This document shows positions 22,878 through 49,769 of a stretch of 51,543 bases of DNA, piece after piece (the first letter of the stretch is position 1; each line of letters starts with the position of its first letter). The DNA is from Ruminococcus flavefaciens (GTDB taxonomy: Bacteria > Bacillota > Clostridia > Oscillospirales > Ruminococcaceae): positions 49,021 to 100,563 of the forward strand of contig DFJW01000075.1 of assembly GCA_002373775.1 (NCBI GenBank), in the 5' to 3' direction. Under the pieces are notes generated by a model. That model worked only from the letters and a program-made list of their open reading frames with translations. It was not told where the DNA came from and made no database searches. The translations under genes and the position numbers were made by a program.

Positions 22878-23576
22878 TTACAGTGACAAACTGCGCAGCA
22901 TTGCGTAGAGTTCGGCGTTGGATGGTACATATGGGCAGAAATCTTCGGAGGCAGCGAAGTCCTCGGCAGAGCAGCACATAGGGTAGAGTTTGGTGTTGTC
23001 GAAGCTTGCTGAAGCTGCCACCCATATTCTGAAGACGTAGTACTTATATGAGCCGTCCACAGTGAACTCGGTATCGGCGGAGGAATTGGCGAGGACTTCA
23101 AGGGCGAGGTCGTCGTTGTATCCGTAGAGCTGGATACGGACGCTGCTGCTGCCGGTCCCTCTGAGGACATATCTGCCGTTTCTGAGGAAGGGCTCCTGCT
23201 TATTCTCGGTAGATGCCGAGGCATTGGCGTAGAGGTCAAAGACGAGGATAGTACTTGAAGAGGTATTATTCGTGCCGTTGAGAGTGAGAGTACCGTCCGG
23301 CTCGGGAGTAATGGTTATGCCGGATTTGGTAGTTTCTCTGAAACCGATGATTATGCGATTTTTCGCGCCCTTATCGACAATGCCTGCAAGGATATCATCC
23401 TGAACGGTCTGGCTGGTCTGAAGGGCAGAGACGGATGCCTGCACTGACTGCATGTCACGGGCATCCGCTTTTTCGGCAAGGAGTGCATCGGTCTGGGCTT
23501 TGGTGTAGACATCTCCGGGTGCAGAGGCACTGCCGCTGAATTTAGCCGCCTTGAACATATCGTATATCTCACCCAT
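22878..23576 (-). CDS. Phage tail/fibre-like protein
   Basis: A 232-residue protein. The ATG at 23576 is preferred over an upstream GTG because AAGGAGG lies eight bases before it. The N-terminus has YTKAQTDALLAEKADA, a motif very common in phage tail fibre and baseplate-appendage proteins, followed by a short coiled coil (residues about 38-65). The C-terminal 150 residues are beta-rich, with TPEPDGTLTLNGTNNTSS and a jelly-roll-like Ser/Thr/Asn composition, plausibly a receptor- or carbohydrate-binding domain. Its start overlaps the preceding gene. No other phage genes lie nearby, but the operon shares an upstream block with the head-gene cluster at 42.6 kb, suggesting it supplies that particle's adhesion part. 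Confidence 0.65.
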   Translation of the reverse strand: MGEIYDMFKAAKFSGSASAPGDVYTKAQTDALLAEKADARDMQSVQASVSALQTSQTVQDDILAGIVDKGAKNRIIIGFRETTKSGITITPEPDGTLTLNGTNNTSSSTILVFDLYANASASTENKQEPFLRNGRYVLRGTGSSSVRIQLYGYNDDLALEVLANSSADTEFTVDGSYKYYVFRIWVAASASFDNTKLYPMCCSAEDFAASEDFCPYVPSNAELYAMLRSLSL

Positions 23577-23817
23577 TCTGTTCACCTCCTTCGAAAAGGG
23601 AACTGTCGTGTCCCTGATATACCCACCTGCCGCTGCTGGTGAGGGCGTAGAATTCGCCGGCGGCTATCACCCATGCGATGCTTCCCATTGAGAGAAGACT
23701 TCCGGGGAATGCGTCGGCTGCCGGAAGGTCAGCAGCAGTATCTGCCGCTATTTCCGCGCGTACGAGAGCTTTTCCGTTTTCGTACCTGAGAAAAGTCTCA
23801 CTGATTATCGTTCTCAT
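23569..23817 (-). CDS. Small phage tail-associated-like protein
   Basis: An 82-residue protein with a good ribosome-binding site (GGAGG). It has no signal peptide or membrane helix. It begins MRTIISETFLRYENGKALVRAEI and contains LSMGSIAWVIAAGEFYALTSSGRWVYQGHD, a composition typical of the small proteins encoded just before tail-fibre genes in clostridial prophages. It overlaps the fibre-like gene by eight bases and is probably translationally coupled. I assign it as phage-derived from this context; no domain was firmly recognised. Confidence 0.55.
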   Translation of the reverse strand: MRTIISETFLRYENGKALVRAEIAADTAADLPAADAFPGSLLSMGSIAWVIAAGEFYALTSSGRWVYQGHDSSLFEGGEQNG

Positions 23818-23854
23818 GTATGTACCTCCATTCTGTAGATAAAAAGTGTATCCG

Positions 23855-23915
23855 CATAATAGGGCATAAAACGGGGATTTTTCAACGGAAAACCATTGAA
23901 TATCCGAAAAAGTTT
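23855..23915 (-). promoter_or_regulatory. Conserved control block upstream of tail-fibre operon
   Basis: Read on the minus strand, this block begins AAACTTTTT, continues with GATATTCAATGGTTTT, CGTT, AAAAA, ATGCCC and TTATG, and includes a usable promoter (TTGAAA, 18-base spacer, TATTAT). The same elements, in the same order and almost the same spacing, occur upstream of the terminase gene at 42499-42558. The block ends about 60 bases before the start codon in both cases. Confidence 0.8.
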
Positions 23916-23930
23916 ACAAAATGTTCACAT

Positions 23931-42232: not shown

Positions 42233-42353
42233 AATCCACCTCTGATATTAATTGCAACATAGTGATACATTATTATTATACTACATTTATAAGAAAAAAG
42301 AAAGAGTAAATTTTGGATTTTGTAAAAAAATGTCGCCTTCTTCGTTTGGGTGG

Positions 42354-42417
42354 GGATGCGTATCTCTCGGGAAGAACTCTTTCTCAAAATTTTTTTCCTC
42401 AAGAAGTCACGCATCAC
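42354..42417. repeat. Short copy of the GTGATGCG-edged repeat
   Basis: GGATGCGTATCTCTCGGGAAG at the left and AAGTCACGCATCAC at the right are inverted edges around a 30-base interior with CTCTTTCTCAAAA. It looks like an internally deleted member of the family at 6488-6721. The 42233-42593 gap otherwise holds AT-rich promoter-like sequence and the conserved block below. Confidence 0.55.
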
Positions 42418-42498
42418 TCCCGGAACGGAGTGCAGAAGATTTGTAGGAAATGGACTGAAATGACTGTTGAAGATTGTGCAGGTATACGAAGATCGAAA

Positions 42499-42558
42499 AA
42501 ACTTTTTAGATATTCAATGGTTTTGCGTTTAAAAAAGGGCAAAAAATGCCCCCTTATG
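42499..42558 (+). promoter_or_regulatory. Conserved control block upstream of phage head cluster
   Basis: AAACTTTTT, GATATTCAATGGTTTT, CGTT, AAAAA, ATGCCC and TTATG occur in this order, matching the block upstream of the tail-fibre operon (23915-23855, minus strand). The core (42499-42535) is identical at 34 of 38 aligned positions by eye, with one 1-base indel. The -10-like hexamer here (CCTTAT) is poorer than in the other copy (TATTAT), which would suit activator dependence. The first start codon lies about 58 bases downstream. Confidence 0.8.
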
Positions 42559-42593
42559 AACGGTGTTTCACTGTGAAGGAAGGAGGAATGACA

Positions 42594-43070
42594 ATGGCTG
42601 AACGCGGGATAAGCAAGAAGCGTGAAGACTTCTGCGGTCTGTACGCGACGCTGGGGAACGTATCGGAGGCGGCTGAGAAGGCTGGTTTTGAAAAGTCATC
42701 GGCGCTGAAGGAAGGGCTGAGATGTCTGGGCAGAGAAAAATGCAGGGAGCGCATCCGTGAAGTTGCGGAACTGCTCTCGGGAAGCGGGAGCGTTGCTGCC
42801 GGGCTGAGACGGCTCGCATTCGGAAGCTGCAATGATGCGGTATATCTCGTATTTGCGGACGAACTGCCGCCGGCATCGGTGATAAGCGGACTTGATCTTT
42901 TCAACGTTTCCGAGATCAGAAGGGTGAAAGGCGGAGGCGTGGAGGTAAAGCTTTTCGACAGGCAGAAAGCACTGGAGAAACTGCTGGAGCTGGACACTTC
43001 GGTTTCGGACCGTGAAAAGGCGGAAAGCCTTATCGAAGCACTGACGTGCAGGGAGGATGAGCAGGTATGA
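42594..43070 (+). CDS. terS: Phage terminase small subunit
   Basis: A 158-residue DNA-binding packaging protein. Of two close ATGs the second is chosen because AAGGAGG then has normal spacing. The N-terminus (SKKREDFCGLYATLGNVSEAAEKAGF) is the helix-turn-helix typical of small terminase subunits, and the C-terminus (VSEIRRVKGGGVEVKLFDRQKALEKLLEL) matches the common tail that follows it. It would recognise DNA for packaging. It overlaps terL by four bases (ATGA). No regulator, integrase or recombinase gene lies upstream; the neighbour is the host activase on the opposite strand. Confidence 0.88.
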   Translation: MAERGISKKREDFCGLYATLGNVSEAAEKAGFEKSSALKEGLRCLGREKCRERIREVAELLSGSGSVAAGLRRLAFGSCNDAVYLVFADELPPASVISGLDLFNVSEIRRVKGGGVEVKLFDRQKALEKLLELDTSVSDREKAESLIEALTCREDEQV

Positions 43071-44311
43071 ATATCCGCAGTTTCTCACCGAAACAGCGGC
43101 TGGCTCTCAGCTGGTGGAAGGAGCCGGAGTACGCTTCAATGGACGCTGTCATTTGCGACGGCGCTGTCAGAAGCGGAAAAACGCTCTCGCTCTCGCTGGG
43201 CTTCATGCTCTGGGCAGGGACCTGTTTCAACGGACGCGATCTTGCGCTCTGCGGCAAGACTGTCACATCTCTGCGGCGCAATTTAGTCGTTCCGCTGATG
43301 TCGATGCTGCCGGGATGCGGTTTCACATGCCGGGAAAAGGTGAGCAGGAACTACATAGACGTCACATTTCTCGGACACACTAACCGTTTCTATCTCTTCG
43401 GCGGCAGGGACGAGAGCTCAGCGGCTCTGATACAGGGAATGACACTGGCAGGCGTGCTTTTTGACGAAGCTGCACTCATGCCGCGGTCTTTCATCGAGCA
43501 GGCTATTGCGAGATGTTCGGTGAACGGCTCGAAAATGTGGTTCAACTGCAATCCGGACAATCCCTCCCACTGGTTCTACTGCGAGTGGATAAGAAAAGCC
43601 GCAGAGAAAAAGGCACTGTACATCCATTTCACTATGGACGACAATCCTTCCCTGAGCAGGAGCATGAAAGCAAGGTACAGGAGACTGTATACCGGCGCTT
43701 TCTATGACAGATTCATTCTCGGGAAATGGACAGTGTCGGAAGGGACGGTCTATCCCATGTTCAGCGTGGAGAAGCACATCACGGACAGCATCCCGGAGTG
43801 TGGAAAATACGTTATATCCTGTGACTACGGCACTGTAAATCCGTCGTCATTCGGGCTGTGGGGACTCTCAGGCGATATCTGGTACAGGATAAGAGAGTAC
43901 TATTACTCCTCAAAAAAAGAGGGAGTCCAGCGCACAGACGAAGAACACTACGCCGCTCTTGAAGAACTTGCAGGAGGTCTTGACATAGCGAAGGTGATAG
44001 TCGATCCTTCTGCTGCAAGCTTTATCGAGTGTATCCGCAGACACGGCAGGTTCAGAGTGGTAAAGGCGGACAACGACGTGGTCTCGGGCATAAGGAACGT
44101 TAGTTCGATGCTCTCGCAGGGCAGGCTCATGTTCCATGAGTCATGCAGGGACACTATCCGGGAATTCGGCCTCTACCGCTGGAACGAAAGCTCCGGCAGG
44201 GATGCTCCGGTCAAGGAGAACGACCACGCTATGGACGATATCCGCTACTTTGTCACCGACATGCTCAGCGGCAGTCAGGATGCAGTTTTTGCGATCTCTG
44301 TGCCGCGATGA
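43067..44311 (+). CDS. terL: Phage terminase large subunit
   Basis: A 414-residue packaging motor and nuclease of the PBSX-like type. The ATPase half has a Walker A (GAVRSGKT, residues 32-39), a Walker B (GVLFDEA, Asp133-Glu134) and the coupling-type segment MWFNCNPDNPSHWF. The nuclease half has the metal-binding acids Asp253 (SCDYGTVNPSS), Asp313 (IVDPSA) and Asp390-Asp391 (HAMDDIRYF). All expected catalytic residues are present, so it should be active. Length is normal for the family. It is translationally coupled to terS and sits 29 bases before the portal gene. Codon use resembles the host genes, suggesting long residence. Confidence 0.95.
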   Translation: MNIRSFSPKQRLALSWWKEPEYASMDAVICDGAVRSGKTLSLSLGFMLWAGTCFNGRDLALCGKTVTSLRRNLVVPLMSMLPGCGFTCREKVSRNYIDVTFLGHTNRFYLFGGRDESSAALIQGMTLAGVLFDEAALMPRSFIEQAIARCSVNGSKMWFNCNPDNPSHWFYCEWIRKAAEKKALYIHFTMDDNPSLSRSMKARYRRLYTGAFYDRFILGKWTVSEGTVYPMFSVEKHITDSIPECGKYVISCDYGTVNPSSFGLWGLSGDIWYRIREYYYSSKKEGVQRTDEEHYAALEELAGGLDIAKVIVDPSAASFIECIRRHGRFRVVKADNDVVSGIRNVSSMLSQGRLMFHESCRDTIREFGLYRWNESSGRDAPVKENDHAMDDIRYFVTDMLSGSQDAVFAISVPR

Positions 44312-44340
44312 CACCGTTCAGTATTTTCAAAGGAGGAGCT

Positions 44341-45468
44341 ATGAAGCTATTCAAAAAGAAGACGCCGCCGGCACAGGCTCCGGAGATAGTGAGTGCCGGA
44401 AGGTATCATTCTCTCAGCACACGTCTGCCGCCTGCGGTAGAACCATTCGAAAAGGAGCTTTACGACCGGCTGAGATATGCCGTGCCTGTCATTGATGCGG
44501 CTTTGATGAAAATAATCCGCCTTACCGGCGGATTCCGGGTGATATGCTCCGACGAGAGATATCAGGAAGAACTCGACAGCTTTATGGAAAATGTGCCGGT
44601 AGGCATCGCCGGAAGGTCCATAGGCTTCTTCACCGATAATTTCCTCGACAGCATCCTCACTTACGGCAGCGCTGCCGCAGAGATAGTCCACGATGAGGAC
44701 AATGAACGCATAGCCGGCATATGCCTCGGGGATATCTCCCGTATACGCATGACCGCCGGAAAAGATCCGTTTACACGGGGATATACCGTCGTATCGGAGG
44801 ACGGCAGCGAAAAGCCTGTCAAGCATCCGGAAAGGATACTCTACTCCTCCCTTGCCGGCGGACATTCCCTGCTGCGCGGACTGCCTTCACTGAGCAGCAT
44901 ACTCCTGCGCATTTACGAATGTATCGGTCAGAATTATGACCGGGCAGGAAATGTGAGGTACGCGGTCACATACAGACCGCCTGCCGGTTCGGGAGATGCA
45001 GTTTACTCCCGTGAAAGGGCACGGCAGATAGCCGAGGAATGGGCGGACGGCATGAACTCCGCCAGATACGGTCAGGTCAAGGACTTCGTCGCCGTGGGGG
45101 ACGTAGATATCAAGGTCATAGGAGCTGACAATCAGCTTTTCGACACGAACGTTCCCGTGCGGCAGCTGCTGGAACAGATAGTCGCAAAACTCTCGATACC
45201 GCCTTTCCTGCTGGGACTCAGCTGGAGCAGCACCGAGAGGATGTCCTCACAGCAGGCGGATATCCTCACCTCGGAACTGGAATACTACCGCAGACTGCTG
45301 TCACCGGTGATTTGCGATGTGGGAAACAGTTTCCTCGCATCCGAAGGCTATGAAGCCGTATGCCGCGTGGAATGGGAAAACATCAACCTTCAGGACGAAT
45401 CCGTACTCGCTCAGGCGAGACTCACAAACGCCCGTGCTGCCGAAATAGAGGCAAGACTGGGCATCTGA
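44341..45468 (+). CDS. Phage portal protein
   Basis: A 375-residue portal, the dodecameric ring through which DNA enters the capsid. The start at 44341 follows AGGAGGAG; the frame is open further upstream but has no site there. Recognisable features are the helical stem region with DAALMKIIRLTGGF, DSILTYGSAAAEIVHDEDN and, late, LFDTNVPVRQLLEQIVAKLSIPPFLLGLSWSSTERMSSQQ, a strong portal signature. At 375 residues it is shorter than most portals (400-500) and lacks any extension at the C-terminus. It lies between terL and the capsid gene as usual. Confidence 0.88.
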   Translation: MKLFKKKTPPAQAPEIVSAGRYHSLSTRLPPAVEPFEKELYDRLRYAVPVIDAALMKIIRLTGGFRVICSDERYQEELDSFMENVPVGIAGRSIGFFTDNFLDSILTYGSAAAEIVHDEDNERIAGICLGDISRIRMTAGKDPFTRGYTVVSEDGSEKPVKHPERILYSSLAGGHSLLRGLPSLSSILLRIYECIGQNYDRAGNVRYAVTYRPPAGSGDAVYSRERARQIAEEWADGMNSARYGQVKDFVAVGDVDIKVIGADNQLFDTNVPVRQLLEQIVAKLSIPPFLLGLSWSSTERMSSQQADILTSELEYYRRLLSPVICDVGNSFLASEGYEAVCRVEWENINLQDESVLAQARLTNARAAEIEARLGI

Positions 45469-45506: not shown

Positions 45507-46463
45507 ATGTATAACGATATCAGACTTGAAAAGGGATTTTATAATCTCAGCGGAAAATCATTCACTGCTGCTCTGGAAGAGCTCGATCCTTCTTCGGCTT
45601 ACAGCGGCACTCCACTGGAAAAGCTGGATGCTTTCGAGAGACAGCTCAAGAGGTTCAACATCCGCATAAGCGGTGAGAACTGCGACTGCGTGGAGAAATT
45701 CTTCACATCCACGGAAACCGCCATACTCTTCCCGGAATTCGTCACACGCTCTATCAGAAAGGGCTTTGATGAGACTGTGCTCTCGTCCGTCTGCGCCGCA
45801 AAGACCTACAGCAATTCCGGTCAGTACCTCGGCTGCACTCTGGACGATACGGCTGAATATACTCCCTCCGCACAGGCAGCTTCACTTCCTTCCGCTTCCG
45901 TAAGGGAGAGCGCTTCCGCTACCGTCCTCGCTAAGTACGGCAGACTCATCAGCGCTTCATATGAAGCTGTTCGTCAGCAGAGACTGGACGTCTTCGGCAT
46001 CATGCTCAGAAGCATCGGTGTGAAACTCGCTGCTGCCGTAGTCAAGCAGGCTGTGGAGGTACTGGCAGAGGATGCAGCTTCGATCTCCACATCTTCACTC
46101 AGCTACGACGACCTTGCAAAACTCTACGGCTGCTTCGACTGCTTCGATATGACTACGGTCATCGCATCTCCGGAGGTAGCTTCAAAGATCGCGGCAATGG
46201 ATCAGCTCGCGGACAGCTCTGCCGGTCCGGACGGAAGATTCATGCTCCCCTTCGGCTCAGAACTCATTAAGACACCTGCTGCTTCAAACAGCAAAATCAT
46301 CGGCATCGACCGCGCATTCGCACTGGAATTCATCACAAGCACCGACCTTGTAATGGAGACGGACAAGCTCATCGACCGTCAGCTGGATCAGATAAGCGTT
46401 TCCATTACCTGCGGTTTCAGGAAGATAACTCCGGAAGCTGTAAAAGTGCTTGAGATCGCGTAA
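45507..46463 (+). CDS. Major capsid protein (HK97-fold)
   Basis: A 318-residue capsid protein by order and pattern. A short N-terminal arm is followed by a P-domain-like segment (TILFPEFVTRSIRKGF), an alternating beta stretch with PSASVRESASATVLAKYGRLISASYEAVRQQ, the long spine helix region (DVFGIMLRSIGVKLAAAVVKQAVEVL), and an A-domain (MTTVIASPEVASKIAAMDQLADS and the terminal FITSTDLVMETDKLIDRQLDQISVSITCG). The gene has a strong AGGAGG site. A stable hairpin follows the stop codon, a common way to raise capsid expression over the next gene. The closest named family could not be determined by eye. Confidence 0.82.
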   Translation: MYNDIRLEKGFYNLSGKSFTAALEELDPSSAYSGTPLEKLDAFERQLKRFNIRISGENCDCVEKFFTSTETAILFPEFVTRSIRKGFDETVLSSVCAAKTYSNSGQYLGCTLDDTAEYTPSAQAASLPSASVRESASATVLAKYGRLISASYEAVRQQRLDVFGIMLRSIGVKLAAAVVKQAVEVLAEDAASISTSSLSYDDLAKLYGCFDCFDMTTVIASPEVASKIAAMDQLADSSAGPDGRFMLPFGSELIKTPAASNSKIIGIDRAFALEFITSTDLVMETDKLIDRQLDQISVSITCGFRKITPEAVKVLEIA

Positions 46464-46510: not shown

Positions 46511-46547
46511 CGCGTCACGTCTTTTGCATAATATGAAAGGAGAGATC

Positions 46548-47378
46548 ATGGATAACGCAGTTCTCGATAAGATAAACCGATTCACACGCCGTCCCATGAA
46601 GGAAGAGGAGGTCTACGTCTTCTCAGTCGTGCTCTGCGACAACGAGATAGACCGCGACTGCGAACGCTTTTCAGATGAGGCACTGGCTCAGCTCTGCGAG
46701 GGATTCATTGGAAGGACGGGTATATCAGACCACGATCCTTCTGCCGCAAATCAGACAGCGCGTATCTTCGATGCCTGCCTTGTGACTGATGAAAGCAGAA
46801 AGAACCGATGCGGCATGCCTTACAAATACCTGAAAGCACAGGCTTATATGGTGCGCACCGATGAGAACCGCGACCTCATCGCGGAAATAGACGGCGGCAT
46901 AAAAAAGGAGGTCAGCATCTCCTGCTCGGCTGAGAAAAAAACCTGTTCGGTCTGCGGCTGTGACAGGAACACTTCCGGATGCAGTCACGTCAGAGGAAAG
47001 TACTACGGCGGCAAGCTCTGCCATACCGTGCTCAGCGGCATTACAGATACTTACGAATGGAGCTTCGTTGCTGTCCCGGCACAGGTGAATGCCGGCGTGA
47101 CAAAGCATTTCAGCAGCACGGATGTCACCGGAAGTCCGGCGGCATCTCAGATCGCAGAGGCTGACGAGGAACTGCGCCGGGATATCCGCAGACTGGCGTA
47201 CTTTTCCGGCGGAAGAGAGGCGGCGGATTCTTACAGTCTTGCCTGCCGTGATATGGATACTTCCCGTCTCATCAGTCTGAAAAAGTCACTGGAGAGCCGC
47301 CGGAAGAGAAACGGCATCGAAGTTCAGCTGACAACAGGCAGCACAGAGGATGCTGCCGAGGGATTTTCTATGAAATGA
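46548..47378 (+). CDS. Prohead protease-like protein with zinc-ribbon insert
   Basis: A 276-residue protein, start supported by AAAGGAG. The first 130 residues resemble phage prohead protease-type domains: YVFSVVLCDNEIDRDCERF, GRTGISDHDPSAANQTARIF with a candidate catalytic His, and IKKEVSISCS with a candidate Ser. A cysteine/histidine cluster follows (CSVCGCDRNTSGCSHVRGKYY...LC), then the conserved WSFVAVPAQVNAGVTKHF. The same arrangement occurs in prophage proteins encoded near capsid genes. It lies after the capsid gene rather than before it, which is unusual for a maturation protease, so a scaffold-like role is possible. Catalysis is inferred, not shown. Confidence 0.65.
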   Translation: MDNAVLDKINRFTRRPMKEEEVYVFSVVLCDNEIDRDCERFSDEALAQLCEGFIGRTGISDHDPSAANQTARIFDACLVTDESRKNRCGMPYKYLKAQAYMVRTDENRDLIAEIDGGIKKEVSISCSAEKKTCSVCGCDRNTSGCSHVRGKYYGGKLCHTVLSGITDTYEWSFVAVPAQVNAGVTKHFSSTDVTGSPAASQIAEADEELRRDIRRLAYFSGGREAADSYSLACRDMDTSRLISLKKSLESRRKRNGIEVQLTTGSTEDAAEGFSMK

Positions 47379-47386
47379 GGTGTGCT

Positions 47387-47758
47387 ATGGACAATGCAGA
47401 AATAAGATCACTTTTCCTGCTCTTCTCCGGAGAAGAGGAGATAGGTGCAAACGGTCCGTTTATCGACATAGCAGTGGCTGAAACGGAAAAAATGCTGCTG
47501 CCGGGCTGTGATACCGAAGACATGCGGCTCAATTTCCTTGCGGCGGCTATCGCAAATGAACGCTTTCAGCAGGCGAAAGCTGCAAGAGACAGGACAAGAG
47601 CGGCATATGCCGGGAAAATGCTCACTGCCGGTTCGGAACTTCCGGTAAAGCATGCTCACGGTCTCGTGCTGGACTACATGCGGCTCTGCGAAGATATCCT
47701 CAGCAGCAGGACTTTCTTTTTCATGAGCACGCCTTTCAGAGAGGAGGAACAGATATGA
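47387..47758 (+). CDS. Probable phage head-tail connector protein
   Basis: A 123-residue, mostly helical protein. The ATG at 47387 is preferred because GAGGTG then has normal spacing; an ATG twelve bases earlier overlaps the previous stop. It has no signal peptide. Features are MDNAEIRSLFLLFSGEEE, LRLNFLAAAIAN-like helix (MRLNFLAAAIANERF) and a final helix with YMRLCEDIL. Size, helix content and position between protease and tail-terminator genes match gp6-like adaptor proteins that close the portal. The assignment depends mostly on gene order. It overlaps the next gene by four bases. Confidence 0.6.
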   Translation: MDNAEIRSLFLLFSGEEEIGANGPFIDIAVAETEKMLLPGCDTEDMRLNFLAAAIANERFQQAKAARDRTRAAYAGKMLTAGSELPVKHAHGLVLDYMRLCEDILSSRTFFFMSTPFREEEQI

Positions 47759-48165
47759 TAAGCGATATCGTACCGATCATAGTAAACACACTCAGAAATG
47801 CAGGCGTTGAGAATGTGTACAGTGCCTTTGACGCGATACCCGTCGAAAGCAAGGGCAGAAGCATTTTCACAGTGGTCGGCATTGAGAGCTGTTCAGTTTC
47901 AGCGCCTATATACAGCTACTCTACGGTATATGCGCCGTTCAAAGCTGAGATAGGCATAAAGGTGACAGCTCCCGGCGATTTCTCCATGGGCAGCGTATAC
48001 GGTCACTACAGCGAAAATATAGAACCGGTGCTGGAGGAAATGAGCTCCCTGACATGTTCTGTCAGGGAGGCTGCTGTGAAATATGATTCCAATATAAACA
48101 GACTGGTGCTGAACATCAGGATGAACGTCACAGGCATGAGCAGGCTGGAAAGGAGGACATCATGA
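47755..48165 (+). CDS. Probable phage tail-terminator/minor tail protein
   Basis: A 136-residue protein, ATGA-coupled at both ends. It has alternating helix and strand: ISDIVPIIVNTLRNAGVENVYSAF, then IYSYSTVYAPFKAEIGIKVTAPGDFSMGSVYGHYSENIEPVL and a final NRLVLNIRMNVTGMSRLE. Size and fold pattern resemble the tail-terminator or neck proteins encoded after the connector. I could not match a named family with certainty. Intact frame and tight coupling argue it is still used. Confidence 0.5.
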   Translation: MISDIVPIIVNTLRNAGVENVYSAFDAIPVESKGRSIFTVVGIESCSVSAPIYSYSTVYAPFKAEIGIKVTAPGDFSMGSVYGHYSENIEPVLEEMSSLTCSVREAAVKYDSNINRLVLNIRMNVTGMSRLERRTS

Positions 48166-48557
48166 GCAGTACGGCTTCCATAACTCACCGTGAGGCTGTT
48201 CCGGTAGTCATCGGCGGAGTGCGTTTCTACTGCGAGAGCTTCAGGGCTGAATCCGCCGGGCATATCAGCGATGCAGCTACAGTCTCCGGCGGAGATGTGC
48301 TTACGAATATCGCCCCCGGTCCGGTAAGACTTACTCTGAACTGCCGGATAGCAGACGAGGAACAGCCCATGCGAGCTGTGCAGATACTCCACAATATGAT
48401 GCGCTCTCCGTCCCTTTTCTCCTTCTCCTACCGGGGACTCAGCTTCACGGGATGCTGCATACATTCATTCTCTGCCGACGATAACGGCGAGGACTTCATC
48501 AGCGTCTCATTCACTCTTCTGACACCGGATATCATCGGACTGGAGGTGCAGTCATGA
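48162..48557 (+). CDS. Small phage tail protein of unknown type
   Basis: A 131-residue, beta-rich protein, overlapping its neighbours on both sides by four bases. It has ITHREAVPVVIGGVRFYCESF, a central GPVRLTLNCRIADEEQPMRAVQILHNMM and SVSFTLLTPDIIGLEV. In contractile and siphophage clusters this position, just before the hub, holds tube, LysM-type or baseplate wedge proteins, but no LysM motif is visible. It is far too short for a tape-measure protein. Role unknown; structural by context. Confidence 0.5.
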   Translation: MSSTASITHREAVPVVIGGVRFYCESFRAESAGHISDAATVSGGDVLTNIAPGPVRLTLNCRIADEEQPMRAVQILHNMMRSPSLFSFSYRGLSFTGCCIHSFSADDNGEDFISVSFTLLTPDIIGLEVQS

Positions 48558-49474
48558 ATATAAGACTTGTCATCAGGGACAGCAGCGGCGCTTCTTTTGC
48601 GTCCGATAACGTTCTCAGGTTCACATTCAGAAAGGACGCCTATGTTCCCTATACCGCGCTGACTGTCAGAGCGGTCATGGATGCGGATATCACTGACGCT
48701 GCTGAGGTGAAACTCTACATCGGCAGCAGGCTCATCCATCACGGACTGGCTGACAGCGTGAGATCGGTATACTCCGGAGGAAAGAGGATAGTTTCGGCTT
48801 CGTCACGCGGTTTCACTTCGCTGCTCTGCCAGAATCAGATACCGCCCGGTCTGAAGACCGGCGTTTCACTGAACAGCCTCATGAACGGCTACTACCTTCT
48901 CCCAAATGTCACCCACGAGGACAATTCCGACGTGGACAACTACATATATGTGGATAAGAATTCCACCATGTGGGACGGCATCGCCAATCTCTGCTTCCGC
49001 CTGAACGGAAGATATCCCTACATCCGCGGTGCTAATAATGTGCGGATAACTCCCGTTGCTCCGCCGAGGATGTTCGAATACACTGCCAGTCAGCTGCTCT
49101 CCACCGGTACTGAACTGACCGGCAGGAGACTTATCAGTAATTTCCACATGGCTGACATAGCCGGAGAATACGGCACTTACGAGCTTCAGGATGACGATGC
49201 CATAAGCATGAAGGTGATACGCCATAAATTCTTCGATCTGGATATGGAGTTCCTCCGCGATCCGGACAACGCTCTGGTGTACAGGGACAATATCGCTTCC
49301 CGTGGAAAAAAACACATCTTTTGCAGCTACAGCGGCTATAACGGCGAGGACCTCTCCGATGTCCTGAGCTTCGGTGCTTACACCGAAAAACGTATATCCA
49401 CTCTGAAAGTCACCGGCAGCAGTTCCGGAGTGATAACAGAAGTCGGATTCTATGAGGATAAGTTCCCCCACTGA
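48554..49474 (+). CDS. Phage baseplate hub-like protein (XkdQ/gpD type)
   Basis: A 306-residue protein with the pattern of the tail hub domain shared by XkdQ of PBSX and gpD of P2. It has an N-terminal strand-rich region (LRFTFRKDAYVPYTALTVRAVMD), then the characteristic IGSRLIHHGLADSVRSVYSGGKRIVSASSRGFTSLL, a central helical part (NSTMWDGIANLCFRLNGRYPYI), and a C-terminal VSSGVITEVGFYEDKF-like strand pair. This hub normally sits at the tail tip. Here it is the last phage gene: tape-measure, sheath, baseplate, holin and lysin genes expected next are absent, and a hairpin and FeoA-like gene follow. Confidence 0.7.
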   Translation: MNIRLVIRDSSGASFASDNVLRFTFRKDAYVPYTALTVRAVMDADITDAAEVKLYIGSRLIHHGLADSVRSVYSGGKRIVSASSRGFTSLLCQNQIPPGLKTGVSLNSLMNGYYLLPNVTHEDNSDVDNYIYVDKNSTMWDGIANLCFRLNGRYPYIRGANNVRITPVAPPRMFEYTASQLLSTGTELTGRRLISNFHMADIAGEYGTYELQDDDAISMKVIRHKFFDLDMEFLRDPDNALVYRDNIASRGKKHIFCSYSGYNGEDLSDVLSFGAYTEKRISTLKVTGSSSGVITEVGFYEDKFPH

Positions 49475-49523: not shown

Positions 49524-49769
49524 ATGGAAAGGAACGGCAGCCTCAGTTCGCTCAGAGAGGGCGGGTGCTGCATCGTTACGGACATTTCGGCAGCAGGGAA
49601 AATGCGCAGCAGGTTCATCGACCTCGGCGTCGAAAAAGGGGCAAGGATAGAATGTCTGCATGCCCGTCCCGGCGGAGGCATCGCCGCTTATCTCATCTGC
49701 GGCGCTGTCATCGCCCTCCGCTCTGCCGACGCCGCCTGCATCAGAGGTGTTATCTCCGATCCCCCATAA
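49524..49769 (+). CDS. FeoA-domain protein
   Basis: An 81-residue cytoplasmic protein with the SH3-like FeoA fold: LSSLREGGCCIVTDIS, then RSRFIDLGVEKGARIECLHARPGGGIAAYLICGAVIALRSADAACIRGV. FeoA proteins assist the FeoB ferrous-iron transporter, but no feoB gene is next to it; it stands between the phage cluster and the three-hairpin repeat, converging with carB. It could be a stand-alone FeoA paralogue, which are frequent in Clostridia. Its ribosome-binding site lies in the arm of a stable hairpin, suggesting weak or regulated translation. A link to the phage genes is not shown. Confidence 0.8.
   Translation: MERNGSLSSLREGGCCIVTDISAAGKMRSRFIDLGVEKGARIECLHARPGGGIAAYLICGAVIALRSADAACIRGVISDPP

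Follow-up and report, generated by a model that had tools for sequence, protein, structure and literature searches.

The block upstream of the small terminase gene (terS) in this Ruminococcus flavefaciens genome is, from comparison of sequences across the genus, very probably the promoter box of a dispersed regulon resembling a gene transfer agent (GTA), with that degree of confidence attaching to the claim of a shared promoter. The same compound element is found at a similar distance from the start codon in a head-packaging operon, two kinds of tail operon, holin/endolysin cassettes, and replication-type genes, and the operons led by the box occupy separate chromosomal loci in the genus. A first-pass annotation of the window, which is the whole 51,543-nucleotide stretch of DNA analysed, had proposed a shared activator or sigma site tying two loci into one regulon. 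Both copies lie where it placed them (42499-42558, plus strand; 23915-23855, minus strand), upstream of terS, which has its start codon at 42588 or 42594 (plus strand), and of a tail operon with its start codon at 23817 (minus strand). The parts of the two copies are:

42477..42490, plus strand: upstream element TGCAGGTATACGAA of the terS copy (genus consensus TGCAnnTATACAAA), from alignment A1 of 43 terS upstream regions
42499..42507, plus strand: A/T tract AAACTTTTT of the terS copy, from the sequence and A1
42513..42532, plus strand: core dyad TTCAATGGTTTTGCGTTTAA of the terS copy, the proposed binding site of a dimer, from A1, arm concordance and arm covariation
42553..42563, plus strand: -10-like element CTTATGAACGG of the terS copy, a conserved block of columns in A1
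42576..42586, plus strand: Shine-Dalgarno region of terS, from the sequence
23912..23929, minus strand: direct repeat TGTGAAC / TGTAAAC replacing TGCAnnTATACAAA upstream of the tail copy, from the sequence
23907..23915, minus strand: A/T tract AAACTTTTT of the tail copy, from the sequence
23881..23900, minus strand: core dyad TTCAATGGTTTTCCGTTGAA of the tail copy, with a right arm that begins with a -35-like TTGAAA, from the sequence and the leave-out matrix
23851..23861, minus strand: -10-like element of the tail copy, TATTAT within TATTATGCGGA, from the sequence

Global alignment of the tail and terS copies, with one gap, gives 46 identical columns of 61, reproducing the whole-block identity of about 46/61 reported in the annotation. 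The same elements are present in both copies as it described, but the spacing is not equal, the T-run being separated from GATATT by one base in one copy and by two in the other. Chance similarity was ruled out by pattern matches, shuffled pairs, and a leave-out matrix. The pattern AAACTTTTTNNGATATTCAATGGTTTT with up to three mismatches occurs at just these two places in the genome's own assembly (2.84 Mb, 87% complete), while the reversed pattern has no match there. The two 188-bp upstream regions have a local alignment score of 32.5, compared to a maximum of 22.5 among 2000 Markov-shuffled pairs, and a matrix made from the terS-upstream blocks of 42 relatives, without the window copies, finds exactly two sites in the window (scores of 54.5 and 48.0; next best -12.9), with the tail copy outscoring the terS copy. 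A duplicated gene end, which the annotation had also argued against, was ruled out as well: the downstream genes are unrelated and the block is found again at many loci. A third, weaker site in the same genome (C6:9536; E 1.8e-4 with R1, a sequence-only model) precedes a gene resembling phage replication proteins.

The core of the box is a 20-bp dyad of the type TTCAAYGG-N4-CCRTTGAA behind an A/T tract, and in both window copies the centre of the dyad is about 34 bp upstream of the centre of the -10-like TTAT. Alignment A1 combines the terS upstream regions of 42 relatives with that of the window (43 rows); the TerL loci were fetched from 80 contigs, and 38 of the 80 were left out of A1 for a contig end, an unrecognisable block, or a redundant row. 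The alignment shows TGCAnnTATACAAA, the A/T tract, the dyad, a spacer of about 20 bp, and TTATGAACGG, and the spacing between the dyad and the -10-like element is strict. The block is conserved above its flanking sequence, as the first-pass annotation expected of a shared site. When the sites of a single genome are compared, the conserved positions between about -65 and +55 form a comb with variable gaps, and identity beyond those limits is at background. The terS copy lacks a hexamer pair of the sigma-70 type; the tail copy has one, TTGAAA-18-TATTAT (10/12 to consensus, where shuffles of the region average 1.1 such pairs), and its TTGAAA hexamer starts inside the right arm of the dyad.

R1 was scanned over 60 genomes, 36 from the genus and 24 from other orders, and since it was trained on terS blocks from genomes overlapping those scanned, its terS matches are not independent. 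Sites with E below 1e-5 are present in 33 of the 36 genus genomes (all except G016, G022, and G023), while none of the 24 other-order genomes has a site below 1e-4 (best 4.8e-4). At E up to 0.05 there are three sites in the genome of the window, six in G035, 11 in G008, 17 in G019, and 26 in G007, and 59 of these 63 sites are below 1e-6. The regularity of site spacing along contigs has p values of 0.008 in G019, 0.037 in G007, and 0.68 in G008 (0.075 pooled). This genus-wide scan, which had been suggested with the first-pass annotation, finds the block upstream of orthologous terS clusters, tail operons, and lysis genes, and so supports the proposed tie of two loci into one regulon.

Classification was applied to 122 sites, these being the sites found by R1 scans and fetched rather than all sites. 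Four precede terS, 36 precede another gene in the sense direction 23-89 bp after the dyad (within a class limit of 120 bp), 61 are convergent, meaning that the stop of a facing gene lies within 160 bp, and 21 belong to no class. Genes around the sites were predicted with a simple codon-usage caller, which may miss small genes, and labels without a family match are by resemblance. Among the 36 non-terS sense genes, 33 are of tail, lysis, or phage-replication type by family match or resemblance, and the other three (L180, L273, and L302) have no assigned type. Host-type genes follow the site in the sense direction at L152, L159, L278b, and L281, at a larger distance.

The tail operon of the window has two genes:

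23569..23817, minus strand: P0002, a small tail-operon protein of 82 aa and first gene of the operon, with genus matches that have the box upstream
22878..23585, minus strand: P0001, a tail-fibre-like protein by resemblance and by its position after P0002, as in L182, L194, and L164

Neither protein has a meaningful family match, P0001 having one irrelevant match below the cut-off. P0002 has 14 matches in 13 of the 36 genus genomes, its own included, and 13 of the 14 loci have a same-strand R1 site upstream. The distance from site to match is 28-62 bp at nine loci, 134 bp at one, and 423-441 bp at three, where a holin-like gene lies between; the site at L235 is weak, and L237 is the one locus without a box. 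A second, unrelated tail protein is downstream of boxes as well, with the box directly upstream at seven of nine distinct loci; the box is weak at L338, and there is none at L343 (the most divergent genome) or L346 (a weak homologue). On larger stretches from relatives, box-led cassettes are set among host genes:

L329: box-led cassette of holin, P0002, fibre, and M15 endolysin
L321: box-led cassette of P0002, fibre, holin, and M23
L322 and L327: box-led cassettes of holin and M15
L326: box-led cassette of M15
L317 and L318: box-led tail operons

Representatives of these cassettes match Phage_holin_4_1, Peptidase_M15_3, and Peptidase_M23 with LysM in Pfam. A second operon like that of the Faecalibacterium prausnitzii GTA (FpGTA), with tail fibre, holin, and endolysin, is present at L329 and L321; it was not seen complete in the genome of the window, where none of the three R1 sites precedes a lysis gene. 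At L309 (R. albus KH2T6), the box is followed by a ribosome-binding site, ATG, and the start of what appears by resemblance to be a decayed tail-fibre gene.

The box also precedes replication-type genes encoding AAA_25, CHC2 primase, DUF3987, Lin1244_N, and DUF6291 proteins, some of them single between host genes and some heading an apparent phage replication operon (L178, L181, and L206). These cases hint that the switch of the GTA also serves prophages or related elements. Phage- or element-type replication operons start with the box at these three loci and at L176, L177, and L183, and most of the six carry another upstream element of the TGTAAAC-TTT-GTGAAC type. The AAA_25 helicase-type gene was ruled out as a universal partner of the box, being present in only four of 22 genus genomes sampled (G004, G007, G008, and G019, each of which has many convergent sites), while G006 has many too but no AAA_25 gene. 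The gene has a box in the three genomes where it is at least 55% identical, and lacks one at the G008 copy; at L203, L199, and L331 (G019, G007, and G004) it stands alone behind the box with host genes on both sides.

The head cluster downstream of the terS copy consists of:

42588..43070, plus strand: terS, small terminase (PHROG small terminase 6e-11; Pfam Terminase_2 2.6e-10)
43067..44311, plus strand: terL, large terminase (TIGR01547 2.3e-57; PHROG 2.2e-47)
44143..45468, plus strand: portal protein ORF (PHROG portal 1.5e-126), with the true start probably near 44.3-44.5 kb
45507..46463, plus strand: major capsid protein (PHROG major head protein 2e-62)
46548..47378, plus strand: conserved head-cluster protein (phrog_16951 5e-90 for ORF 46524-47378)
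47387..49474, plus strand: four more conserved cluster genes, one weakly Dit-like, below the Pfam cut-off
49524..49769, plus strand: small FeoA-domain gene, last in the cluster (Pfam FeoA 7.5e-12)

The order of the genes in 47387..49474 is identical in L210, L211, and L220. A small FeoA-domain gene closes the head cluster in G031 too (L325 6516-6749; Pfam FeoA 2e-17). A capsid homologue is found in 31 of the 36 genus genomes, as a single match each with 56-84% identity (the G031 gene being partly masked by N), and distant matches (41-42%) are found in two of the 24 other-order genomes. The cluster is flanked by host genes, of CoA-enzyme-activase and carbamoyl-phosphate-synthase type, and the ten head-cluster ORFs scanned have no integrase match. 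The locus has phage-type head and packaging genes, is conserved in single copy across the lineage, unlike a sporadic prophage, lies between host genes, and has a structural cluster free of integrase and replication genes; head, tail, and lysis cassettes occupy separate places. On gene content, conservation, and dispersal, these loci are best labelled a putative gene transfer agent. Four records fetched from among the closest "phage" TerL matches have no obvious regulator beside terS other than a MarR-type gene in L238, and three of the four resemble chromosomal GTA-like loci, not phages. Among the closest TerL matches are the "Bacteriophage sp." virome records L238, L239, and L241 (MT835508.1, MT835952.1, and MT835769.1), which have terS-terL-portal-capsid clusters with flanks that are host-like by resemblance (ABC transporter, rRNA methyltransferase, and thymidylate synthase types); these records may be GTA-packaged host DNA, not phages.

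The arms of the dyad differ between species. They are TTAAACGG/CCGTTTAA in G007, ATCAACGG/CCRTTGCA in G008 and G004, and TTCAAGG/CCTTGAA in G010; in more distant genomes with a GTA the architecture is the same and the arms are GTTGCAC/GTGCAAC. Six copies of a GTTGTAC-N6-GTACAAC dyad are scattered over the R. albus KH2T6 genome, one of them at terS, and the reversed control has none. Within a genome, each dyad has on average 1.82 mismatches of 16 to that genome's terS dyad, compared to 4.43 on permutation of the terS dyads across genomes (102 sites in 21 genomes with a terS dyad at hand; p=1e-4, the smallest possible, with genome relatedness only partly controlled). The same p value is reached with convergent sites alone (58 sites, eight genomes) and with sense sites alone (43 sites, 21 genomes); some genomes, G013, G015, G032, and G035 among them, show poor agreement. 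Since the arms vary between species yet largely agree within a genome, they point to one trans-acting dimeric regulator serving the sites of each genome.

The first-pass annotation had left the choice between an activator and a sigma site, and of these a dimeric regulator, presumed to be an activator, suits the dyad core and its covarying arms better than a bare sigma site does. A dedicated alternative sigma factor that used the box as its promoter, with the dyad as part of the -35 region, would produce the same regulon and is consistent with the strict spacing between dyad and -10-like element, but sigma sites are normally not symmetric and both arms alter jointly between species, so this origin of the box is improbable. 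The arm covariation (24 double-changed cells, with none of 500 shuffles as high) is also what a dyad acting as RNA would show, that is, a hairpin in the 5' leader with a role in antitermination, processing, or translation control and a promoter further upstream, and both L034 and the tail copy do fold as hairpins. An RNA function is nevertheless unlikely to explain the dyad: 20.6% of arm cells are non-standard pairs, the hairpin of the dyad is missing from the minimum-energy folds of the window's terS copy and L047, A1 yields no consensus structure with RNAalifold, no Rfam family reaches the gathering score at positions 42300-42700, and the -10-like element sits between the dyad and the start codon.

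In the dimeric regulator model, one DNA-binding protein would bind the dyad, with the right arm overlapping the -35 position and the centre near -43 of the expected start, and would control head, tail, and lysis transcription jointly, so that the cell makes and releases particles. From these sequence features an activator is more likely than a repressor, because of the position of the dyad centre near -43 and the lack of a sigma-70-type hexamer pair in the terS copy. The same regulon with the opposite sign, the dyad binding a repressor with phage-repressor or LexA-like logic, is a possible but doubtful alternative. The overlap of the dyad with the -35 position would suit a repressor, as would the near-consensus hexamer pair that begins in the right arm of the tail copy, and the changing arms, which phage-replication-type operons also carry, are reminiscent of immunity operators; the terS copy, however, having no such pair, would need help to fire, although this is not decisive. 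Two candidate types for the regulator were considered. An ArpU-type protein has no match over the cut-off in seven genomes (weak matches below the cut-off in two of the seven), and NarL/LuxR-type proteins, with three to seven matches per genome in all seven, are not diagnostic. Two NarL/LuxR proteins in G008 resemble ordinary two-component regulators; one is incomplete at the end of its stretch, and one of the two genes is divergent from site L154.

Half of the classified sites (61 of 122) face a convergent gene, and many of these genes are recognisable host genes, not all of them identified. Such copies lie at unrelated loci, with 7-20 classified sites in each of G004, G006, G007, G008, and G019, and the upstream part is also quite similar among the G007 copies. 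Both observations would suit a dispersed, possibly mobile, MITE-like repeat that is found at phage-type and host loci by chance, with no shared regulation; a common dispersed repeat was the contrary case named in the first-pass annotation, and many copies at unrelated host loci are indeed found in some relatives, but they are not repeat-like. A copied repeat is most unlikely because conservation is comb-like, with variable inner gaps and background identity in the flanks, because the arms track each genome's terS dyad, and because some sites stay in place from one species to another: the site is retained in two species at twelve convergent gene pairs from ten families, with 57-96% identity (the closely related G004 and G008 account for four of them), and some of the pairs show a joint change of both arms, for example at a coaBC-like gene (G006 and G007). 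The predominance of phage-type genes among the sense genes within 120 bp (33, with three of no assigned type) also argues against chance placement. An origin of convergent sites as empty versus filled cassettes was considered and has one clear pair alone, G019 L169 and G035 L180. These two loci have the same convergent gene (55.5% over 677 aa), with the box at its stop in G019 and the box plus small cargo genes in G035.

If the box is a regulatory site, as is preferred here, the convergent copies could tentatively be seen as a working part of the system, in which the GTA regulator would fire conserved promoters, as many as about 20, backwards into host genes at their 3' ends, for antisense silencing or transcription-primed local replication. 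In the first version, host genes would be silenced by antisense transcription during particle production; in the second, local replication primed by transcription would feed host DNA to packaging, which is hinted at by the box-led helicase, primase, and replication-initiator-like genes.

Control of known GTAs offers partial parallels. The Rhodobacter capsulatus GTA (RcGTA) is described as controlled by GafA, which binds directly to the promoters of RcGTA, of its own gene, and of the lysis cassette (PMC6363796). The Ruminococcus system would be similar in having one regulator that reaches several promoters, here inferred from shared sites, but it belongs to a different phylum and, compared to the parts of that account considered here, differs in its dyad with species-specific arms and its antisense-facing sites (PMC6363796). 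The Caulobacter crescentus GTA (CcGTA) is controlled by GafY/GafZ with IHF, and its cluster promoter has a near-palindromic regulator element (PMC11150451). That element sits in the interval from -35 to -10 and is required for the action of GafZ, a protein that allows polymerase to read through a terminator (PMC11150451). A palindrome-type regulator element at a GTA cluster promoter would be shared with Ruminococcus, where, however, the dyad precedes the spacer and is repeated at scattered loci (PMC11150451). FpGTA is reported to have an operon I of terS-terL-portal-scaffold-capsid and an operon II of baseplate, tail fibre, and RBP with holin and endolysin (PMC12946183). Head and tail-lysis operons are likewise separate in Ruminococcus, and its cassettes match the content of operon II, but its modules are more scattered than those described for FpGTA and share a box (PMC12946183). 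The same 2026 report describes GTA-like packaging as widespread among Ruminococcaceae from three human gut donors, reports 4.6 kb GTA-like packaging in Ruminococcus callidus, and sought FpGTA genes in 16 genomes of Faecalibacterium, Gemmiger, and Subdoligranulum plus its own scaffolds (PMC12946183). The words promoter and motif are absent from the main text of that paper (PMC12946183), and no description of FpGTA regulation was found in open-licence PubMed Central. Open-licence PubMed Central papers gave no account of the control of any Firmicutes GTA.

The box provides a sequence handle that lists regulon members hard to find by phage homology, namely tail fibres, lysis genes, and replication-type genes. 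It also offers a bait with which the regulator could be captured, and searches of genomes and viromes for GTA loci may benefit from it. With the co-evolving dyads, joint evolution of regulator and operator can be tested in many species, and RNA sequencing can directly test the conserved sites that face antisense. If the tentative role of the convergent sites is true, an antisense or run-off programme spanning the chromosome would be a new property for a GTA regulator.
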